5,477 nt of DNA from an uncultured Clostridia bacterium (GTDB lineage: Bacteria; Bacillota; Clostridia; Oscillospirales; Ruminococcaceae). Below, piece after piece: positions 3-5,474 of the stretch. Under the pieces are notes generated by a model. The model did no database searches and was not told the origin of the DNA. It saw nothing but the letters and a program-made list of their open reading frames with translations. The DNA is taken from the NCBI GenBank assembly GCA_946056455.1, contig CAMGJS010000086.1, forward strand, positions 1 to 5,477, read 5' to 3'. Position 1 is the first letter of the stretch; each line of letters begins with the position of its first letter. The translations under genes and the position numbers were made by a program.

Positions 3-704
3 GAAGAAAAGGCTATGTCTGAGGAAGAGCTCGTAGCGCTCATCAAAAAACAGCGCGAGTGCGTTGCCGGTATCCTTGATATTCTTGTCGGAGAAGGGTA
101 TATTTCTAAGGAAAAGCTTGACAGCGAGATTGAAAATTTAAAGCGCGACTTTGACATAACCGATGATGAGATGAAGCTCATTATGAACGACGATGTTGAT
201 ATGATAGCGTCGCTCCTTATTGACACGGGTGATTTTTATACAAATTATTATCTCAGCATCGCTCTTAAATTCATTACCCGTTTTCTCGGAAACAAAAACC
301 GTATCGGAAGAACAAAAAAGGTTTCTGAATATGAATGCGAAAGAGCAGTTCTGCAAAAAATATGCACACAAAAAAGCAACTTTGCAATAGGCTTTGCAGG
401 AACGAGAGACGCTTTGCACACTCTCACCGACAGCCTCGAAAGCTTTGAAGCCTCGGACGGCAAGGACGGCAGATATTCACAGCTTGTCGGCTTTATCAAC
501 TGTATCAGCTGTATCTTTGAATGTGGAATAATGCGTGAAAGTGAAATAAACAGCCTTTCAAAAGCAAAGCTTTATAAATCTGCTGAAATAATTTTTAAAG
601 AGAACGGCTTTGTCCTTCCCGTAACACTGAGGGGAACGGACATTGACATTATCGTTGCAAGCGGAGTCAATGATGATTTTGTGAAGATTGTTCATAACAT
701 ATAA
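3..704 (+). CDS. CheX/CheC-like chemotaxis phosphatase-family protein, 5'-partial
   Basis: The frame is open to the left edge. The first ATG (position 15) lies in EEKAMSEEELVALIKKQ, which reads like the inside of a helical repeat, and its only purine run (AGG at 10-12) is too close to serve as a ribosome site, so the true start is probably upstream. Numbering from that ATG, residues 1-60 are helical, with GEGYISKEKLDSEI resembling the 'GYIT-x-EQL' repeats seen before some Clostridia CheX domains. Residues 75-218 resemble a CheX/CheC domain: YYLSIALKFITRFL (78-91), FAIGFAGTRDALHTL (123-137), the central helix QLVGFINCIS (156-165) and the final strands FVLPVTLRGTDIDIIVA (199-215). Family members dephosphorylate CheY-P in the cytoplasm using an E-x-x-N motif; here the Asn is present (N162) but the Glu position is Gly (G159). 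The similarity is judged from memory of the family and is remote, so function is tentative. No signal peptide or membrane segment is visible. Confidence 0.55.
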   Translation, partial: EEKAMSEEELVALIKKQRECVAGILDILVGEGYISKEKLDSEIENLKRDFDITDDEMKLIMNDDVDMIASLLIDTGDFYTNYYLSIALKFITRFLGNKNRIGRTKKVSEYECERAVLQKICTQKSNFAIGFAGTRDALHTLTDSLESFEASDGKDGRYSQLVGFINCISCIFECGIMRESEINSLSKAKLYKSAEIIFKENGFVLPVTLRGTDIDIIVASGVNDDFVKIVHNI

Positions 705-738: not shown

Positions 739-767
739 TTGACAAGCAAAAAATAGTATGGTAGAAT
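739..767 (+). promoter_or_regulatory. Sigma-A type promoter of the T-box leader and fusion gene
   Basis: A perfect -35 box TTGACA (739-744) is separated by exactly 17 bp from a -10 box TAGAAT (762-767, one mismatch to TATAAT). The expected start is an A near 774-776, a few bases before the first strand of T-box Stem I. The promoter lies only 34 bp after the stop codon of the upstream gene in AT-rich DNA. Its spacing to the T-box leader is what independent transcription of the fusion gene would require. Confidence 0.9.
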
Positions 768-980
768 ACATTCAAATGCTGTGACGAAGAAGGCAGGAGC
801 GACTGCGCTTTCAGCGAGTCGGTGGTTGGTGCAAACCGATAGGCATAGTTCCGAAAAAGCCTCTCCCTTCCGAGCAGAAAATGCAAAAGCTGTGATTAAT
901 TTCATTGCGAGTAGTGTTTTCCGTCAGCGCGACGTAACTGCGAACGGCTTGTTGGAGCCTGAGGTGGCATGCGAATGCAA

Positions 981-1021
981 TTTGAGTGGTACCGCGGAAT
1001 GGATATTTATTCCGTCTCAAA
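981..1021 (+). promoter_or_regulatory. T-box antiterminator with tRNA acceptor-binding bulge
   Basis: Lower helix TTTGAG (981-986) pairs perfectly with CTCAAA (1016-1021). The seven-base bulge TGGTACC (987-993) follows. Upper helix GCGGAAT (994-1000) pairs with ATTCCGT (1009-1015, one G-U) across an eight-base loop. In the family, the first four bulge bases (UGGN) pair with the tRNA 3' end NCCA. N is U here (990), which predicts A at discriminator position 73. The 3' strand (1012-1021) is shared with the terminator, so the two structures exclude each other. Confidence 0.93.
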
Positions 1022-1050
1022 GAATTATCTCTTTGAGGCGGATTTTTTAT
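1012..1050 (+). terminator. T-box intrinsic terminator (conditional)
   Basis: CCGTCTCAAAGA (1012-1023) pairs with TCTTTGAGGCGG (1030-1041) over 12 bp with one U-G wobble and a six-base loop, followed by A and six T (1043-1048), then ATTTT. It ends transcription about 35 bp before the fusion gene when tRNA is charged. Formation takes the strand 1012-1021 away from the antiterminator. Confidence 0.93.
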
Positions 1051-1062
1051 TTTCGCCTCAGA
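1032..1062 (+). other. Alternative hairpin using the terminator 3' strand
   Basis: TTTGAGGCG (1032-1040) is complementary to CGCCTCAGA (1054-1062) with one G-U pair, and inner G1041-U1053 and A1042-U1052 can add two more pairs around a T-rich loop. It can form only after polymerase has passed the T-run and is incompatible with the terminator. It ends seven bases before the ribosome site AAAGGA (1069-1074). The pairing is visible; any role is inference. Confidence 0.5.
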
Positions 1063-1082
1063 ATACAGAAAGGATGTTTTGA

Positions 1083-3605
1083 ATGAAAATCAGCTTCTCA
1101 ACCCTTGCCTGTCCCGATTTTGACTGGACAGACATCTACTTCATGGCAAAGGACTTAGGCTTTGACGGAATTGAGATCCGTGGTCTTGGCGACGATATTT
1201 ACGCCGTTAAGGCAAAGCCTTTTACCGACAGTCAGATTTCAAAGACTGTCCGCAAACTCAACGAAATCGGCATTGAAATTCCCTGTCTCTCTTCGGGCTG
1301 TTGCCTTAAAGACAAGGATAAGCTTGACGAAGTTATATCCGAAATTTCAAGCTACATAAACCTCGCTGTAAAGCTTGGTACACCCTTTATCAGAATCCTC
1401 GGCGATAAGGAACCTATGCCCAACGGCGAAGTCGACGACGCTTATGTAGCCGAAGTTCTCACAAAGCTCGCCGATATTGCAAAGGACAAGGGCATAACTC
1501 TTCTTGTTGAAACAAACGGCGTTTATGCCGACACAAAGCGTCTTAACAATCTTCTCAATAAGGTTGATAGAATTGAAGTTGCCGCTTTGTGGGATATGCA
1601 CCACCCTTATCGCTATGCGGGAGAATCACCTGCCCAGACCGTTGCAAACCTTGGTGAGCATATCAAATACTGTCATGTCAAGGACAGCGTTATGAAGGAC
1701 GGCAAGGCTGAATATAAACTTATGGGCGAGGGCGATATGCCTATCAAGGAAATGCTTGAAGAACTCAAAAAGATAGGCTATGACGGATATATCTCGCTTG
1801 AATGGGTAAAGCGTTGGGCAAAGAATCTTTACAGCGCAGGAGTTGTATTCCCTCAGTATGCAAACTATATGGCTCCTTACAGAAGGAAACATAAGCATCC
1901 CTTGCAGGACGACCTGCGTCATCAGGGAAAATATATCTGGCCCAAGGAAAAGCTCATTGACTACACATTCCCCGATGTTCTTGACAGAGTATGCGAGGAA
2001 TTTCCCAACCAGTACGCTTTCAGATACACAGAGCTTGACTACACAAGAACATATCCTCAGTTCAGAGACGATGTTGACACATTCGCGCGTTCACTTCTTG
2101 CAATGGGCGTTAAAAAGGGCGACCATGTCGCTATCTGGGCGACGAATGTTCCCGCGTGGTATATAACCTTCTGGGCAACAACAAAGATAGGCGCTGTTCT
2201 TGTAACGGTAAACACCGCTTACAAGATACACGAGGCTGAATATCTGCTCAAACAGTCGGATACAAATGTTCTCGTTATGATTGACGGTTATAAAGACAGC
2301 AACTATGTTGAGATTATGAAAGAGCTCTGTCCCGAGCTTGCTACCTGCAAACCCGGTGAGCTTGTCAGCGAAAGACTTCCTTTCCTCAAAAGCATTGTCA
2401 CGACCGACTCAAAGGTTGAAGGCTGTTTTACATGGGACGAAGCTATGGCGCTTTCAAAGCAGGTTCCTTATTCCGAGCTTGAAAAGGTAAGAAAAACGAT
2501 AGATAAGCACGATGTCTGCAATATGCAGTACACATCGGGCACAACGGGCTTCCCCAAGGGAGTAATGCTCACACACTACAATGTTGTCAATAACGGTAAG
2601 GCGATAGGCGACTGTATGGATCTTTCGACAGCCGACAAGATGATGATTCAGGTACCTATGTTCCACTGCTTCGGAATGGTTCTTGCTATGACTGCTTCCG
2701 TAACACACGGAACAACAATGTGCCCTATCCCTGCTTTCTCTCCCAAAAAGTCGCTCAACTGTATCAATAAAGAGCAGATAACCGCTTTCCACGGAGTTCC
2801 CACAATGTTCATCGCAATGCTTGAAAACGAAAACTTCCCCACAACCGATTTCTCTCATATGAGAACGGGAATTATGGCAGGCTCGCCTTGTCCTGTCAAG
2901 GTTATGGAAGAGGTTATTGAGAAGATGCATATGCCCGAAATCTGCATCACCTACGGTCAGACCGAGGCAAGCCCCGCAACAACAATGAGTAAGACATCAG
3001 ACTCTATCGAGGACAGAGTAAATACTGTCGGAGGTTCAATCTTCGGCGTTGAAACAAAAATCGTCGACCCCGAAACGGGCGAAGAGCTCCCTGATAATGT
3101 TGACGGCGAATTCTGTGCAAGAGGCTACAACATTATGAAGGGTTACTACAAAATGCCCGAGGCTACTGCGGCGGCTATCGACGAGGACGGCTGGCTCCAT
3201 TCGGGCGACCTTGCAAGAAGACTTCCCAACGGCTACTACAAGATAACGGGAAGAATAAAGGATATGATTATCCGTGGAGGAGAAAACATCTACCCCAAGG
3301 AGATTGAAGAGTTCCTCTATACAAACCCCAAGGTAAAGGATGTTCAGGTTATAGGCGTTCCCGATAAGGACTACGGCGAAGAAATTATGGCTTGTATCGT
3401 TCTTAAACCCGGTGAGACTTCAACGGAAGAAGAAATCAAGGACTTTGTACGCTCCCATATGGCAAAGCACAAGGTGCCCAGATATGTTGCTTTTGTTGAC
3501 GACTTCCCGATGAATGCGGCAGGAAAAATTCTTAAATACAAAATGCGTGAGTGGGCAGTAGAGCTCCTCAGCCTGCAAGCCGCAAATAATATTGAGACCG
3601 CTTAA
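1083..3605 (+). CDS. Sugar isomerase/epimerase-type TIM barrel fused to AMP-forming acyl-CoA synthetase
   Basis: The start ATG has a good ribosome site, AAAGGA (1069-1074), eight bases upstream. Residues 1 to about 265 form an AP-endonuclease-2/xylose-isomerase-like barrel (MKISFSTLAC, LGFDGIEIRG). Its expected metal ligands are all present in the tagatose-epimerase/IolE pattern: E143 (VETNG), D171 and H174 (WDMHH), H198 (CHVKD), E240 (SLEW). Residues 270-290 are a linker. About 290-825 is a full ANL adenylate-forming enzyme resembling the YngI/ACSF2 medium-chain acyl-CoA ligases: P-loop YTSGTTGFPKG (483-493), MFHCFGM (526-532), YGQTE (624-628), HSGDL with D709, hinge GRIKD (723-727), and C-terminal GK with catalytic K815. 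The ligase half should convert an acid, ATP and CoA to acyl-CoA, AMP and PPi in the cytoplasm; the barrel half should isomerise or epimerise a small sugar-like substrate. Neither substrate can be named. Single ligases of this type are about 550 residues and single barrels about 270, so 840 is the sum of both. No signal peptide is visible. The gene is monocistronic, under the T-box, and ends before a strong terminator. Confidence 0.93.
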   Translation: MKISFSTLACPDFDWTDIYFMAKDLGFDGIEIRGLGDDIYAVKAKPFTDSQISKTVRKLNEIGIEIPCLSSGCCLKDKDKLDEVISEISSYINLAVKLGTPFIRILGDKEPMPNGEVDDAYVAEVLTKLADIAKDKGITLLVETNGVYADTKRLNNLLNKVDRIEVAALWDMHHPYRYAGESPAQTVANLGEHIKYCHVKDSVMKDGKAEYKLMGEGDMPIKEMLEELKKIGYDGYISLEWVKRWAKNLYSAGVVFPQYANYMAPYRRKHKHPLQDDLRHQGKYIWPKEKLIDYTFPDVLDRVCEEFPNQYAFRYTELDYTRTYPQFRDDVDTFARSLLAMGVKKGDHVAIWATNVPAWYITFWATTKIGAVLVTVNTAYKIHEAEYLLKQSDTNVLVMIDGYKDSNYVEIMKELCPELATCKPGELVSERLPFLKSIVTTDSKVEGCFTWDEAMALSKQVPYSELEKVRKTIDKHDVCNMQYTSGTTGFPKGVMLTHYNVVNNGKAIGDCMDLSTADKMMIQVPMFHCFGMVLAMTASVTHGTTMCPIPAFSPKKSLNCINKEQITAFHGVPTMFIAMLENENFPTTDFSHMRTGIMAGSPCPVKVMEEVIEKMHMPEICITYGQTEASPATTMSKTSDSIEDRVNTVGGSIFGVETKIVDPETGEELPDNVDGEFCARGYNIMKGYYKMPEATAAAIDEDGWLHSGDLARRLPNGYYKITGRIKDMIIRGGENIYPKEIEEFLYTNPKVKDVQVIGVPDKDYGEEIMACIVLKPGETSTEEEIKDFVRSHMAKHKVPRYVAFVDDFPMNAAGKILKYKMREWAVELLSLQAANNIETA

Positions 3606-3671: not shown

Positions 3672-5474
3672 TTACATAAATTCGCTCATTAAAAATACAA
3701 GGGGAGAGTTCCAGTAAATCGTTATTTCATTTGTGGAGTAGCTCTCTGCGTTGTCGGCATAACATTTTGCCGACGGCTGACCGCGTAATGTGAGCTTTAC
3801 AAAATCGTCCTCGATGTCGTCGTCGGGGCCGCCCACAATCATTCCGGGCATCGGCTTTCCTATAACCTGAGATGGTCTGTGGTGAGGGTTCTGCGGTGAA
3901 GCGGAGCCTGTTTCCGTAACATACGAAATGCCCATCGGGTTTCTTCCGAAGATGTAGTGAAGATGCTCTCTTGCGGCTGAAAGATAGCTGTCGTTGCCCG
4001 TTATCTCGGCGGTATAGATAAGGAACATAGCGTTGTTTGCAACGCACATATTACTGCCCCAGATGTAGTCGTTCTCGCCGAATGAAATCATATATCCGTC
4101 AGAATTTGCAAGGTCACGGAGCCTGTCTGCTTCTTCTATGAATGCCTTTTTGATGTTTGCATAAACATTTTTGTCAATCTTATCTGCGTTATCCGAGGTG
4201 AGAAGTATTGCCGAGCCGTAAGCGCCCATCTGTTGCCAGCCGAATGAAAGCTGAATGTTCTTTTCGGTGAACTTTTTGATTGCGTCAGCGTATTTCTGTT
4301 CGCCCGTAGCGTCAAGCAAAGCGGCGGCGGCAAAATATCTTTCGTCAGTATCCTTTGAGTCGCCGTATGCGCCCGTTGTAATCTGGCTTATGCTCTTGTA
4401 TACGAGTATGTCGTGCTGTTCAAGATAACCCCACGCTTTCTTTGAAGCGGCAAGACATTTTTCCGCAAAAGCTTTGTCAATGGGAAGGTATGTCTTGTAT
4501 GCAACAGCCATAACAGCGGCAAAATCTGCGGTAGCCGTCGATGATACGGGAGAGAGGAAAACCTCGCCCTCGTCCTGCGGCATAATCGCCTGGGGGAATT
4601 CCTTGACGGTAGCTTTATGATAAACTCCGCCGTCCGAGGTCTGCATTTTAAGGAGCCATTCAAGCTGGTATCTTGTTTCGTCAAGCACATCGGGAATACC
4701 GTTGTTGCTTTCGGGGATACCTGCGTTGTCTGAGAACGCGTCGGGGTTTTTCTGATATGCAAGAAGAAGGTCGACAGCCGCCTTAGAGCCTGCAACGGTG
4801 TATTTTCCATAGTCGCCCGCATCGTGCCAACCGCCCGAAACATCAACCTTTTCGCCCGTTTCATAAACGGTAGCCATATCTGTGTGACAAGCCGTGTGAG
4901 CAAAATCTCCTGCGTAATTTTCTGTGAGCTCTTCTCCGCAACGCTGTAAGTAGAACATCTTGACAACCTTGTCAAATGTGTCGCCGTAGATATTGTCGCC
5001 GATTTCAAAGGTATAGGATTTTCCTGCGGTTTCGTTCTCTATGTAATATTTTCCTGCCTTTGTGACAGAGCTGAAATCTGCAAGGCGGTTTATTTCTCCT
5101 GCCATAGCGTTTTCAAAGCTCTGAGAAAGCTCGCCCGTAAAGACCACTTCTCCGTTTTCGGCGTTGACGACATTAAACTTGTCGGCAAGATTTTCGCCTC
5201 TTAAAACGGCAATTTTTTTCTCATTGGGCTTAAAGCCTATCTGGTCGATGTTTATGTCGGGAGCGACAATTTCTTCAACTTTTTTAATGTTGCTGTCATC
5301 AATAAGAGTAAGAACAACATTGTCTATGTAAATATGGTGAATGGGGAGCTCTTTTCCGTCAAGGGTGTTTCCAAGGTTGAATACTATTCTTGAATATTCG
5401 TCCGTGGGTTCTTTCATAGTAAACTCAACGGTGTATGTTTTAATCTCGTTGTCTATTTTAGCCCATACTTCAAC
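3672..5474 (-). CDS. GH9 cellulase/glucanase with Ig-like domain and CBM4-like tail, 5' end missing or broken
   Basis: The first in-frame ATG (5417) starts a 581-residue product, but the frame is open to 5474 and the extra codons (WAKIDNEIKTYTVEFTM) continue the same fold, so this ATG is probably internal; no ribosome site precedes it. From the ATG, residues 1-40 (RIVFNLG, IHHIYIDNVVLTL) look like the final strands of a CBM4/9-type carbohydrate-binding module. Residues 50-140 are the CelD_N Ig-like domain (IDQIGFKPNEKKIAVL ... AGKYYIEN). Residues 147-576 are the GH9 catalytic domain: GGWHDAGDYGKY carries D199 and the predicted base D202, NPHHRPS (510-516) is the active-site His motif, and STNEITIYWNSP carries the predicted acid E564. 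GH9 enzymes hydrolyse beta-1,4-glucan with inversion, normally outside the cell. The CBM4-Ig-GH9 order resembles CbhA/CelK-type cellobiohydrolases, but the protein stops right after the catalytic domain with no dockerin. An in-frame TAA (5475-5477) at the window edge leaves it open whether the gene is a pseudogene, frameshifted, or affected by an end-of-sequence error. The signal peptide would lie outside the window. Confidence 0.9.
   Translation of the reverse strand, partial: VEVWAKIDNEIKTYTVEFTMKEPTDEYSRIVFNLGNTLDGKELPIHHIYIDNVVLTLIDDSNIKKVEEIVAPDINIDQIGFKPNEKKIAVLRGENLADKFNVVNAENGEVVFTGELSQSFENAMAGEINRLADFSSVTKAGKYYIENETAGKSYTFEIGDNIYGDTFDKVVKMFYLQRCGEELTENYAGDFAHTACHTDMATVYETGEKVDVSGGWHDAGDYGKYTVAGSKAAVDLLLAYQKNPDAFSDNAGIPESNNGIPDVLDETRYQLEWLLKMQTSDGGVYHKATVKEFPQAIMPQDEGEVFLSPVSSTATADFAAVMAVAYKTYLPIDKAFAEKCLAASKKAWGYLEQHDILVYKSISQITTGAYGDSKDTDERYFAAAALLDATGEQKYADAIKKFTEKNIQLSFGWQQMGAYGSAILLTSDNADKIDKNVYANIKKAFIEEADRLRDLANSDGYMISFGENDYIWGSNMCVANNAMFLIYTAEITGNDSYLSAAREHLHYIFGRNPMGISYVTETGSASPQNPHHRPSQVIGKPMPGMIVGGPDDDIEDDFVKLTLRGQPSAKCYADNAESYSTNEITIYWNSPLVFLMSEFM

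Follow-up and report, generated by a model that had tools for sequence, protein, structure and literature searches.

In an uncultured bacterium of the Ruminococcaceae, a T-box leader with a leucine specifier codon directly precedes the gene for a fusion of a TIM barrel and an AMP-forming acyl-CoA ligase, and this fusion is probably the isovalerate ligase of a route that remakes leucine through activation, reductive carboxylation and transamination, with the substrate of the ligase and the response of its leader to tRNA both being predictions. Under leucine shortage, binding of uncharged tRNA-Leu to the leader would stabilise its antiterminator, and the ligase would be transcribed and would spend ATP in converting isovalerate to isovaleryl-CoA; a Vor-type 2-oxoacid:ferredoxin oxidoreductase, predicted to run in the carboxylating direction, would then add CO2 with reduced ferredoxin to give 4-methyl-2-oxopentanoate, from which a branched-chain aminotransferase would form leucine. 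The argument draws on features of the sequence: the parts of the leader and its leucine codon, the domains of the protein, the conservation of the arrangement, a LeuA-like gene in related operons, some neighbouring genes, and the loss of LeuB and LeuC from most genomes that have the operon form.

The window, by which is meant the whole stretch of 5,477 nucleotides that was analysed (contig CAMGJS010000086.1), contains an open reading frame at 15-704 (+), the leader region at 739-1048, the fusion gene at 1083-3605 (+) and a GH9 cellulase gene at 3672-5417 (-). The host genome (G000) comprises 1.33 Mb in 244 contigs, is 74% complete, and carries five T-boxes.

The leader and its specifier codon

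The initial annotation had placed a T-box at positions 774-1082, with a promoter of its own and with no gene between it and the fusion, and this description proved accurate to within a few bases: the Rfam T-box covariance model (RF00230) matched the window over the whole model with 81.5 bits and an E value of 3.8e-17 (a score below the Rfam gathering score of 93), the only promoter match in 690-1110 lies just upstream, and the leader immediately precedes the fusion gene (Table 1). Leaders at the same place ahead of orthologous genes scored from 52.3 (L153) to 124.5 bits (G009) with the same model. In addition to the family match, the sequence contains a Stem I specifier loop with its codon, and a UGGN bulge within an antiterminator that excludes the terminator, the two structures being mutually exclusive because both need the same bases. 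The terminator was likewise matched once in 690-1110, at 1011-1042; shuffled sequences yielded on average 0.7 promoter and 0.3 terminator matches, so that these two elements by themselves prove little, and because the folding energy of the leader is ordinary (z -1.49), the case for it rests upon the family model and upon conservation.

Table 1. Features of the leader and of the fusion gene, in window coordinates.
Feature	Position	Strand	Basis
Sigma-70-type promoter, TTGACA-17-TAGAAT	739-767	+	pattern search
T-box leader	772-1022 (complete leader to 1048)	+	RF00230 match, whole model
Stem I from the helix below the specifier loop	786-870	+	786-789 pairs with 867-870, 4/4 pairs
Specifier codon CUC (leucine)	863-865	+	one base ahead of helix strand 867-870; same codon in orthologues
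Antiterminator	981-1021	+	helices 981-986/1016-1021 and 994-1002/1007-1015 around a 7-base bulge UGGUACC, 987-993
T-box core AGUGGUACCGCG	985-996	+	UGGU at 987-990, would pair with a tRNA ending ACCA
Intrinsic terminator, 13 pairs and T-run	1011-1048	+	overlaps the 3' strand of the antiterminator
Fusion gene, 840 aa, TIM barrel and AMP-forming acyl-CoA ligase	1083-3605	+	ORF, domain search
PF01261 xylose-isomerase-like TIM barrel, residues 22-244	1146-1814	+	108.6 bits, cut-off 31.1
PF00501 AMP-binding, residues 301-689	1983-3149	+	E 2.5e-93
PF13193 AMP-binding C-terminal domain, residues 740-815	3300-3527	+	domain search

The codon of a T-box lies just ahead of the helix that closes the specifier loop. 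Codons were accordingly read with a script that required this closing helix and that often returned several candidates, from which the one whose partner helix was normally spaced (70-80 bases in almost every leader) was chosen, and reading by eye was used where the script failed. In the window, the bases two positions earlier spell CUC as well, and the leucine reading thus survives a small shift; in the TBDB procedure, preference goes to codons that lie 2-4 positions 5' of this end of Stem I (PMC7778990). The other four leaders of the host genome, read by eye with the gene known, gave UGC before cysE, UUC before pheS, AUC before ilvA, and UGG before a gene identified by eye as trpB, which lies at a contig end and had no library match. 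Controls in front of genes confirmed by NCBIfam were read correctly in 4/4 cases, namely cysE (UGC), pheS (UUC), ilvA (AUC) and the TrpB-like gene of locus L093 (UGG, missed by the script); the two remaining controls, L003 (the trpB by eye) and L172 (by script too), also read UGG, in front of genes without NCBIfam confirmation.

CUC is also the leucine triplet of the Bacillus subtilis ilv-leu operon (PMC2494555), where a T-box with that specifier stands before the genes of leucine synthesis. The trait is shared with the window, but the Bacillus leader governs ilv and leu genes, whereas that of the window governs an acyl-CoA ligase fusion.

Architecture of the fusion protein

The best NCBIfam match of the ligase half, and thus its nearest named family, is the fatty acid CoA ligase PRK12583 (NF009233), which it matched with 712.9 bits, under the cut-off of 832, and from which it differs further in being fused to a TIM barrel. 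The ligase motifs were invariant in 24 aligned sequences, including those from the operon form described below. A structure prediction for the fusion reached a mean pLDDT of 82.2, and all 50 matches listed in a subsequent fold search were adenylate-forming enzymes at 21-31% identity, which confirms the fold of the ligase and does not inform the TIM barrel. Among the best 120 records listed, those with names were called AMP-binding protein, AMP-dependent synthetase, acyl-CoA synthetase or fatty-acyl-CoA synthase. Against the isovalerate reading, no family member with a proven substrate was met, and PRK12583, below its cut-off, was the only NCBIfam name obtained.

The TIM barrel gave five weak matches in a sequence search against the PDB, among them MJ1311 and D-tagatose 3-epimerase. 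Its metal ligands, which we take to follow a Glu-Asp-His-Glu pattern, would be E143, D171, H198 and E240 in the window, and all four were found in 14 of the 16 aligned sequences of direct form (type A, below) and in only two of the eight of operon form (type B). The barrel is encoded as a separate gene in some genomes (L093, L095), and no TIM barrel was found within the stretch fetched for L100 or L101; at L093, the stand-alone barrel comes after the unfused ligase. An isomerase as the key activity was considered and appears unlikely, in view of the incomplete metal ligands in 6/8 aligned type B sequences and of unfused ligases that can carry a leucine T-box.

Conservation of the arrangement

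At least 578 stretches in GTDB encode a relative of the fusion, and the best 80 of these, at an identity of at least 74%, were kept. A T-box core (at most one mismatch, within 900 bases upstream) was present at 33 of these best 80 loci, and CUC was read in all 33, in 31 by script and in two by eye. Conserved neighbours of the direct form among the best 80 were only lineage-specific, the widest families reaching 14/80, all of them without a T-box core. Ruminococcus flavefaciens SIG534 has two copies of the fusion (L054, L062), one with and one without the core, and in R. flavefaciens 007c a copy with the T-box was found (L069).

A second set of 197 genomes was drawn separately and evenly from the same order, and 195 of these had a completeness of 90% or more with contamination no higher than 5%; 95 of the 197 matched the fusion at an E value of 1e-100 or better. 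These were sorted into 40 of type A (the window's own and 39 others), in which no LeuA-like gene precedes the fusion in the stretch seen; 30 of type B, in which a LeuA-like gene does precede it (two of them partial matches only, G162 over residues 1-767 and G075 over residues 131-832); 19 with an unfused ligase; and six with fragments, leaving 102 genomes without a match. Across the 50 T-boxes that precede fusions in this set, the codon was CUC in 49 and CUG, likewise a leucine codon, in the other.

A search for the T-box before orthologous fusions had been called for in the initial annotation, and in that search the leader proved to be common and not universal. An Rfam T-box lies immediately upstream in 26 of the 40 type A genomes, distributed across nine families, and all 26 leaders read CUC (17 by script, nine by eye); none was found in the other 14 (G171, G055, G043, G056, G069, G029, G052, G088, G081, G017, G142, G159, G170 and G089), the contig ending within about 430 bases upstream in the last four. 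In type B, the T-box stands ahead of the LeuA-like gene in 24/30, with CUC in 23 and CUG in one (L112), 21 being read by script and three by eye; the six type B genomes without an Rfam T-box are G103, G117, G192, G076, G075 and G194, the last at a contig edge. Eleven of the 19 unfused ligases have a T-box directly upstream, always with CUC (least clearly at L173), and in six of the 19 no T-box was found. The genomes without a T-box over these three classes number 26, five of them at contig edges. An exception to the leucine rule is provided by G028 and G042 (L093, L172; 2/19), where a TrpB-like gene under a tryptophan T-box precedes the unfused ligase.

The operon form and its LeuA-like partner

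Twenty type B loci, chosen because a T-box lay some 1.7 kb upstream or because the fusion had 52-60% identity, were fetched at length, and in all 20 a LeuA-like protein (430-540 aa by ORF) is encoded before the fusion; the same gene was found by tblastn in 10 further genomes, for a total of 30. The initial annotation had held that an amino-acid gene recently deleted between leader and fusion would undermine its reading, and the LeuA-like gene does occupy exactly that position in these 30 genomes. The direct form is nonetheless no recent deletion, since together with its T-box it was found in 15 genera other than that of the window, and the gene in question is itself a relative of LeuA from which the catalytic motifs are missing.

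The partner shares HMGL-like and LeuA_dimer domains with 2-isopropylmalate synthase (LeuA, TIGR00973) in 12/12 of those scanned (of 30), and the best PDB match of the L088 protein was 3rmj (E 1e-24). It differs from that enzyme both in its curated score, since two LeuA-like proteins scored against TIGR00973 reached 238 and 263 bits and fell short of the cut-off of 598.7, and in its catalytic motifs. Aligned with 3rmj, the aspartate of DTTLRDGEQ is lost in 19/19 readable proteins, the preceding arginine being kept in three; the histidine pair of HCHND is retained in full by none of 20, one of which retains a single histidine; and the GLGERAGN stretch is absent from 20/20. The residues lost are presumably catalytic or metal-binding, and with the allosteric domain retained we infer that the partner is non-catalytic and may serve to sense leucine.

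Pathway neighbours and the loss of de novo genes

At L114 and L116, and on the other strand at L115, the operon is adjoined by genes that encode a branched-chain aminotransferase and three oxidoreductase subunits; an aminotransferase gene is near the operon of L106, and an aminotransferase and one oxidoreductase subunit are near that of L125. At L114, one subunit was named VorB of 3-methyl-2-oxobutanoate dehydrogenase (NCBIfam; 535.7 against a cut-off of 399), and the aminotransferase matched PRK13357 (477.6 against 307) and ilvE_II (389.2 against 250). VorB exceeds its cut-off in 67/70 fusion genomes, including the host's own and excepting G024, G050 and G186, in a search confined to fusion genomes that therefore shows no enrichment; ilvE_II was found in 65/70, and not in G000 (74% complete), G174, G049, G187 or G107. 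Fusion and VorB are no more than 12 kb apart in 9/30 type B genomes and in 0/40 of type A, and for the nine among the 28 VorB-bearing type B genomes a binomial estimate with random placement in 1.4 Mb gives 6.6e-10. In G050 (L091, L111), which is without VorB over cut-off, a gene that by eye resembles the oxidoreductase NifJ follows the fusion. The ligase and oxidoreductase clusters at L106, L109, L114, L115, L116 and L125 repeatedly include an ATPase of some 220 aa, which is CbiA-like in L114.

The genes of leucine synthesis were counted in each class. With LeuC counted as TIGR02083 over cut-off plus a partial match in G116, and LeuB as TIGR00169 over cut-off, each was found in two of 30 type B genomes (G173, G075), in 29/39 of type A, and in 87 of the 102 genomes that lack the ligase (Fisher 1.4e-15 for type B against this last group), so that 28/30 type B genomes are without LeuB and LeuC over cut-off. 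IlvC was present in 5/30, 14/39 and 86/102, respectively. Counted by genus, any LeuC occurs in 2/21 of type B and 17/23 of type A (p 1.7e-5), a comparison that corrects for relatedness only in part. Among type A genomes, the T-box and LeuC were not significantly associated (LeuC in 17/25 with the T-box and in 12/14 without it, p 0.28). The host genome itself has LeuB and a contig-end piece of LeuC (both on contig C66) and IlvC (contig C3), and the isovalerate route would therefore be an additional supply of leucine there, and not the sole one.

Taken with the codon and with the nine families, the neighbourhood in relatives lends support to the earlier proposal that the fusion is tied to starvation for a single amino acid, which its product would make, salvage or replace: the amino acid would be leucine, and the process its salvage from isovalerate. 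Against this stand the features of type A itself, where VorB was never found within 12 kb of the fusion and most genomes retain LeuC (29/39), as well as the fact that the loss of LeuB and LeuC could also reflect plain leucine auxotrophy, LeuC being missing also from 15 of the 102 genomes without ligase.

A different use of the same chemistry would be for the ligase and its sisters (described below) to supply the isovaleryl-, 2-methylbutyryl- and isobutyryl-CoA with which the synthesis of branched-chain membrane fatty acids would be primed, with leucine being sensed as the usual source of isovaleryl-CoA. The first step would be identical, and there is a precedent in the Pfor4 ferredoxin oxidoreductase of Clostridium thermocellum, which acts in the decarboxylating direction on branched oxo acids destined for branched fatty acids (PMC13011478). 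The type B genomes, however, mostly are without LeuB and LeuC (28/30) and IlvC (25/30) over cut-off and thus need a source of the amino acid; a branched-chain aminotransferase is present in some of the clusters, and T-boxes sense amino acids rather than lipids. This explanation is accordingly rated as unlikely, although lipid-primer use and leucine use of isovaleryl-CoA are mutually compatible.

Somewhat less likely again is that these bacteria are leucine auxotrophs, in which the operon would serve leucine uptake or sparing, or some other leucine-linked product, with the ligase acting on another acid. The loss of LeuB and LeuC, taken alone, would fit such an account, as would a ligase whose substrate is a prediction, and neither the TIM barrel nor an amidohydrolase found in 7/20 long type B loci (after the fusion in six, ahead of the operon in L106; PF04909 in the one scanned) has a place in the isovalerate route; the oxidoreductase and aminotransferase neighbours, and the parallel ligases coded for isoleucine and valine, are instead what reductive carboxylation would lead one to expect. 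An accidental T-box, whether the remnant of an amino-acid gene or a chance neighbour of an unrelated one, might be suggested by the 30 genomes in which a LeuA-like gene separates T-box and fusion and by the known duplication and re-specification of T-boxes (PMC3766115), but it is close to refuted, and was rejected along with recent deletion, by the direct form with its leucine codon, kept in 26/40 genomes over nine families, and by the T-boxes of 11/19 unfused ligases.

Sister ligases under other amino acids

One or two ligases with an HTH-cupin-AMP-binding architecture (three were scanned) lie within 12 kb of the fusion in 11/30 type B genomes and in 0/40 of type A. Upstream stretches of 60 such sister ligases were examined, 59 of them high-ranking matches in relatives and one a weaker match in the host (C74), a sample that left out G096, G123 and genes already included above. 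An Rfam T-box was found upstream in 51/60 (18/20, 20/20 and 13/20), and none upstream of the host's own match. All 51 were readable: 38 carry the isoleucine codon AUC (27 by script and 11 by eye, L236 being the least clear) and 13 the valine codon GUA (10 by script, three by eye). Eleven more sister T-boxes in the long type B loci comprise seven for isoleucine and four for valine.

A PaaK-like ligase, for which PaaK was the best match at L108 (536.7, below the cut-off of 646.3), was found behind a phenylalanine (UUC) T-box at L108 (position 10388) and at L121 (minus strand, position 16433). It resembles the window fusion in being an acid-activating ligase under the T-box of a matching amino acid, and differs in its ligase family (that of phenylacetate-CoA ligase) and in the amino acid concerned. 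Genes that by eye are ACT-domain-like, DAHP-synthase-like and chorismate mutase/prephenate-dehydratase-like lie near the ligase at L108. The L108 locus would fit a salvage of phenylacetate to phenylalanine.

These observations allow a broader scheme, for which the balance of evidence is about even, in which a T-box-coded regulon of leucine, isoleucine, valine and phenylalanine ligases would use isovalerate, 2-methylbutyrate, isobutyrate and phenylacetate as starting material for those amino acids, by way of a Vor-type oxidoreductase and an aminotransferase, and would take the place of de novo synthesis in many gut bacteria that are ruminococcus-like, with the dead LeuA acting as a leucine-sensing regulatory subunit of the leucine ligase.

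Relation to known systems

The carboxylation of isovalerate to leucine was established in rumen ruminococci by labelling, in work by Allison and co-workers published in 1962 and 1966 (PMC7356843), and like routes in the rumen are on record for valine, isoleucine and phenylalanine, the last from phenylacetate (PMC7356843). The hosts are similar, and the same sequence of activation, reductive carboxylation and amination would be expected; the ruminococcal pathway is known from labelling, whereas the present analysis contributes, from sequence, a candidate gene and a predicted mode of regulation. The description of branched volatile fatty acids as growth factors for ruminococci goes back to 1962 (PMC7356843), and isoacids are used as a feed additive (PMC12272956).

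T-boxes and the isovalerate pathway are themselves already known. A literature search on T-boxes with acyl-CoA ligases, on the fusion, and on genes of the isovalerate route, with most subscription journals outside its scope, returned nothing direct; in the main texts of three T-box surveys, "acyl" is absent from PMC2494555 and PMC7778990, and "acyl-CoA" and "AMP-binding" are absent from PMC3766115. As far as the literature was searched, the assignment of an acyl-CoA ligase to leucine by its T-box, the corresponding isoleucine and valine assignments of the sister ligases, and the presence of a dead-looking LeuA in the operon appear to be new.

Each activating enzyme has its predicted product spelled out by a specifier codon, which allows genes for the first step to be picked out from sequence alone; for relatives of rumen and gut bacteria, the fusion is thereby a candidate gene in the conversion of a volatile fatty acid to leucine. 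If the isovalerate reading is correct, gut and rumen bacteria that depend on isoacids would become predictable, and the dead-looking LeuA with its retained allosteric domain would represent a biosynthetic enzyme turned sensor.

Two other genes of the window may be noted. The open reading frame upstream of the leader encodes 229 aa, gave no Pfam or NCBIfam match, and by eye resembles a 306-aa protein encoded near the fusion of L008. On the other side, the GH9 cellulase, which has a CelD_N domain, adjoins the fusion gene, and its presence suggests that the host may be a digester of fibre.
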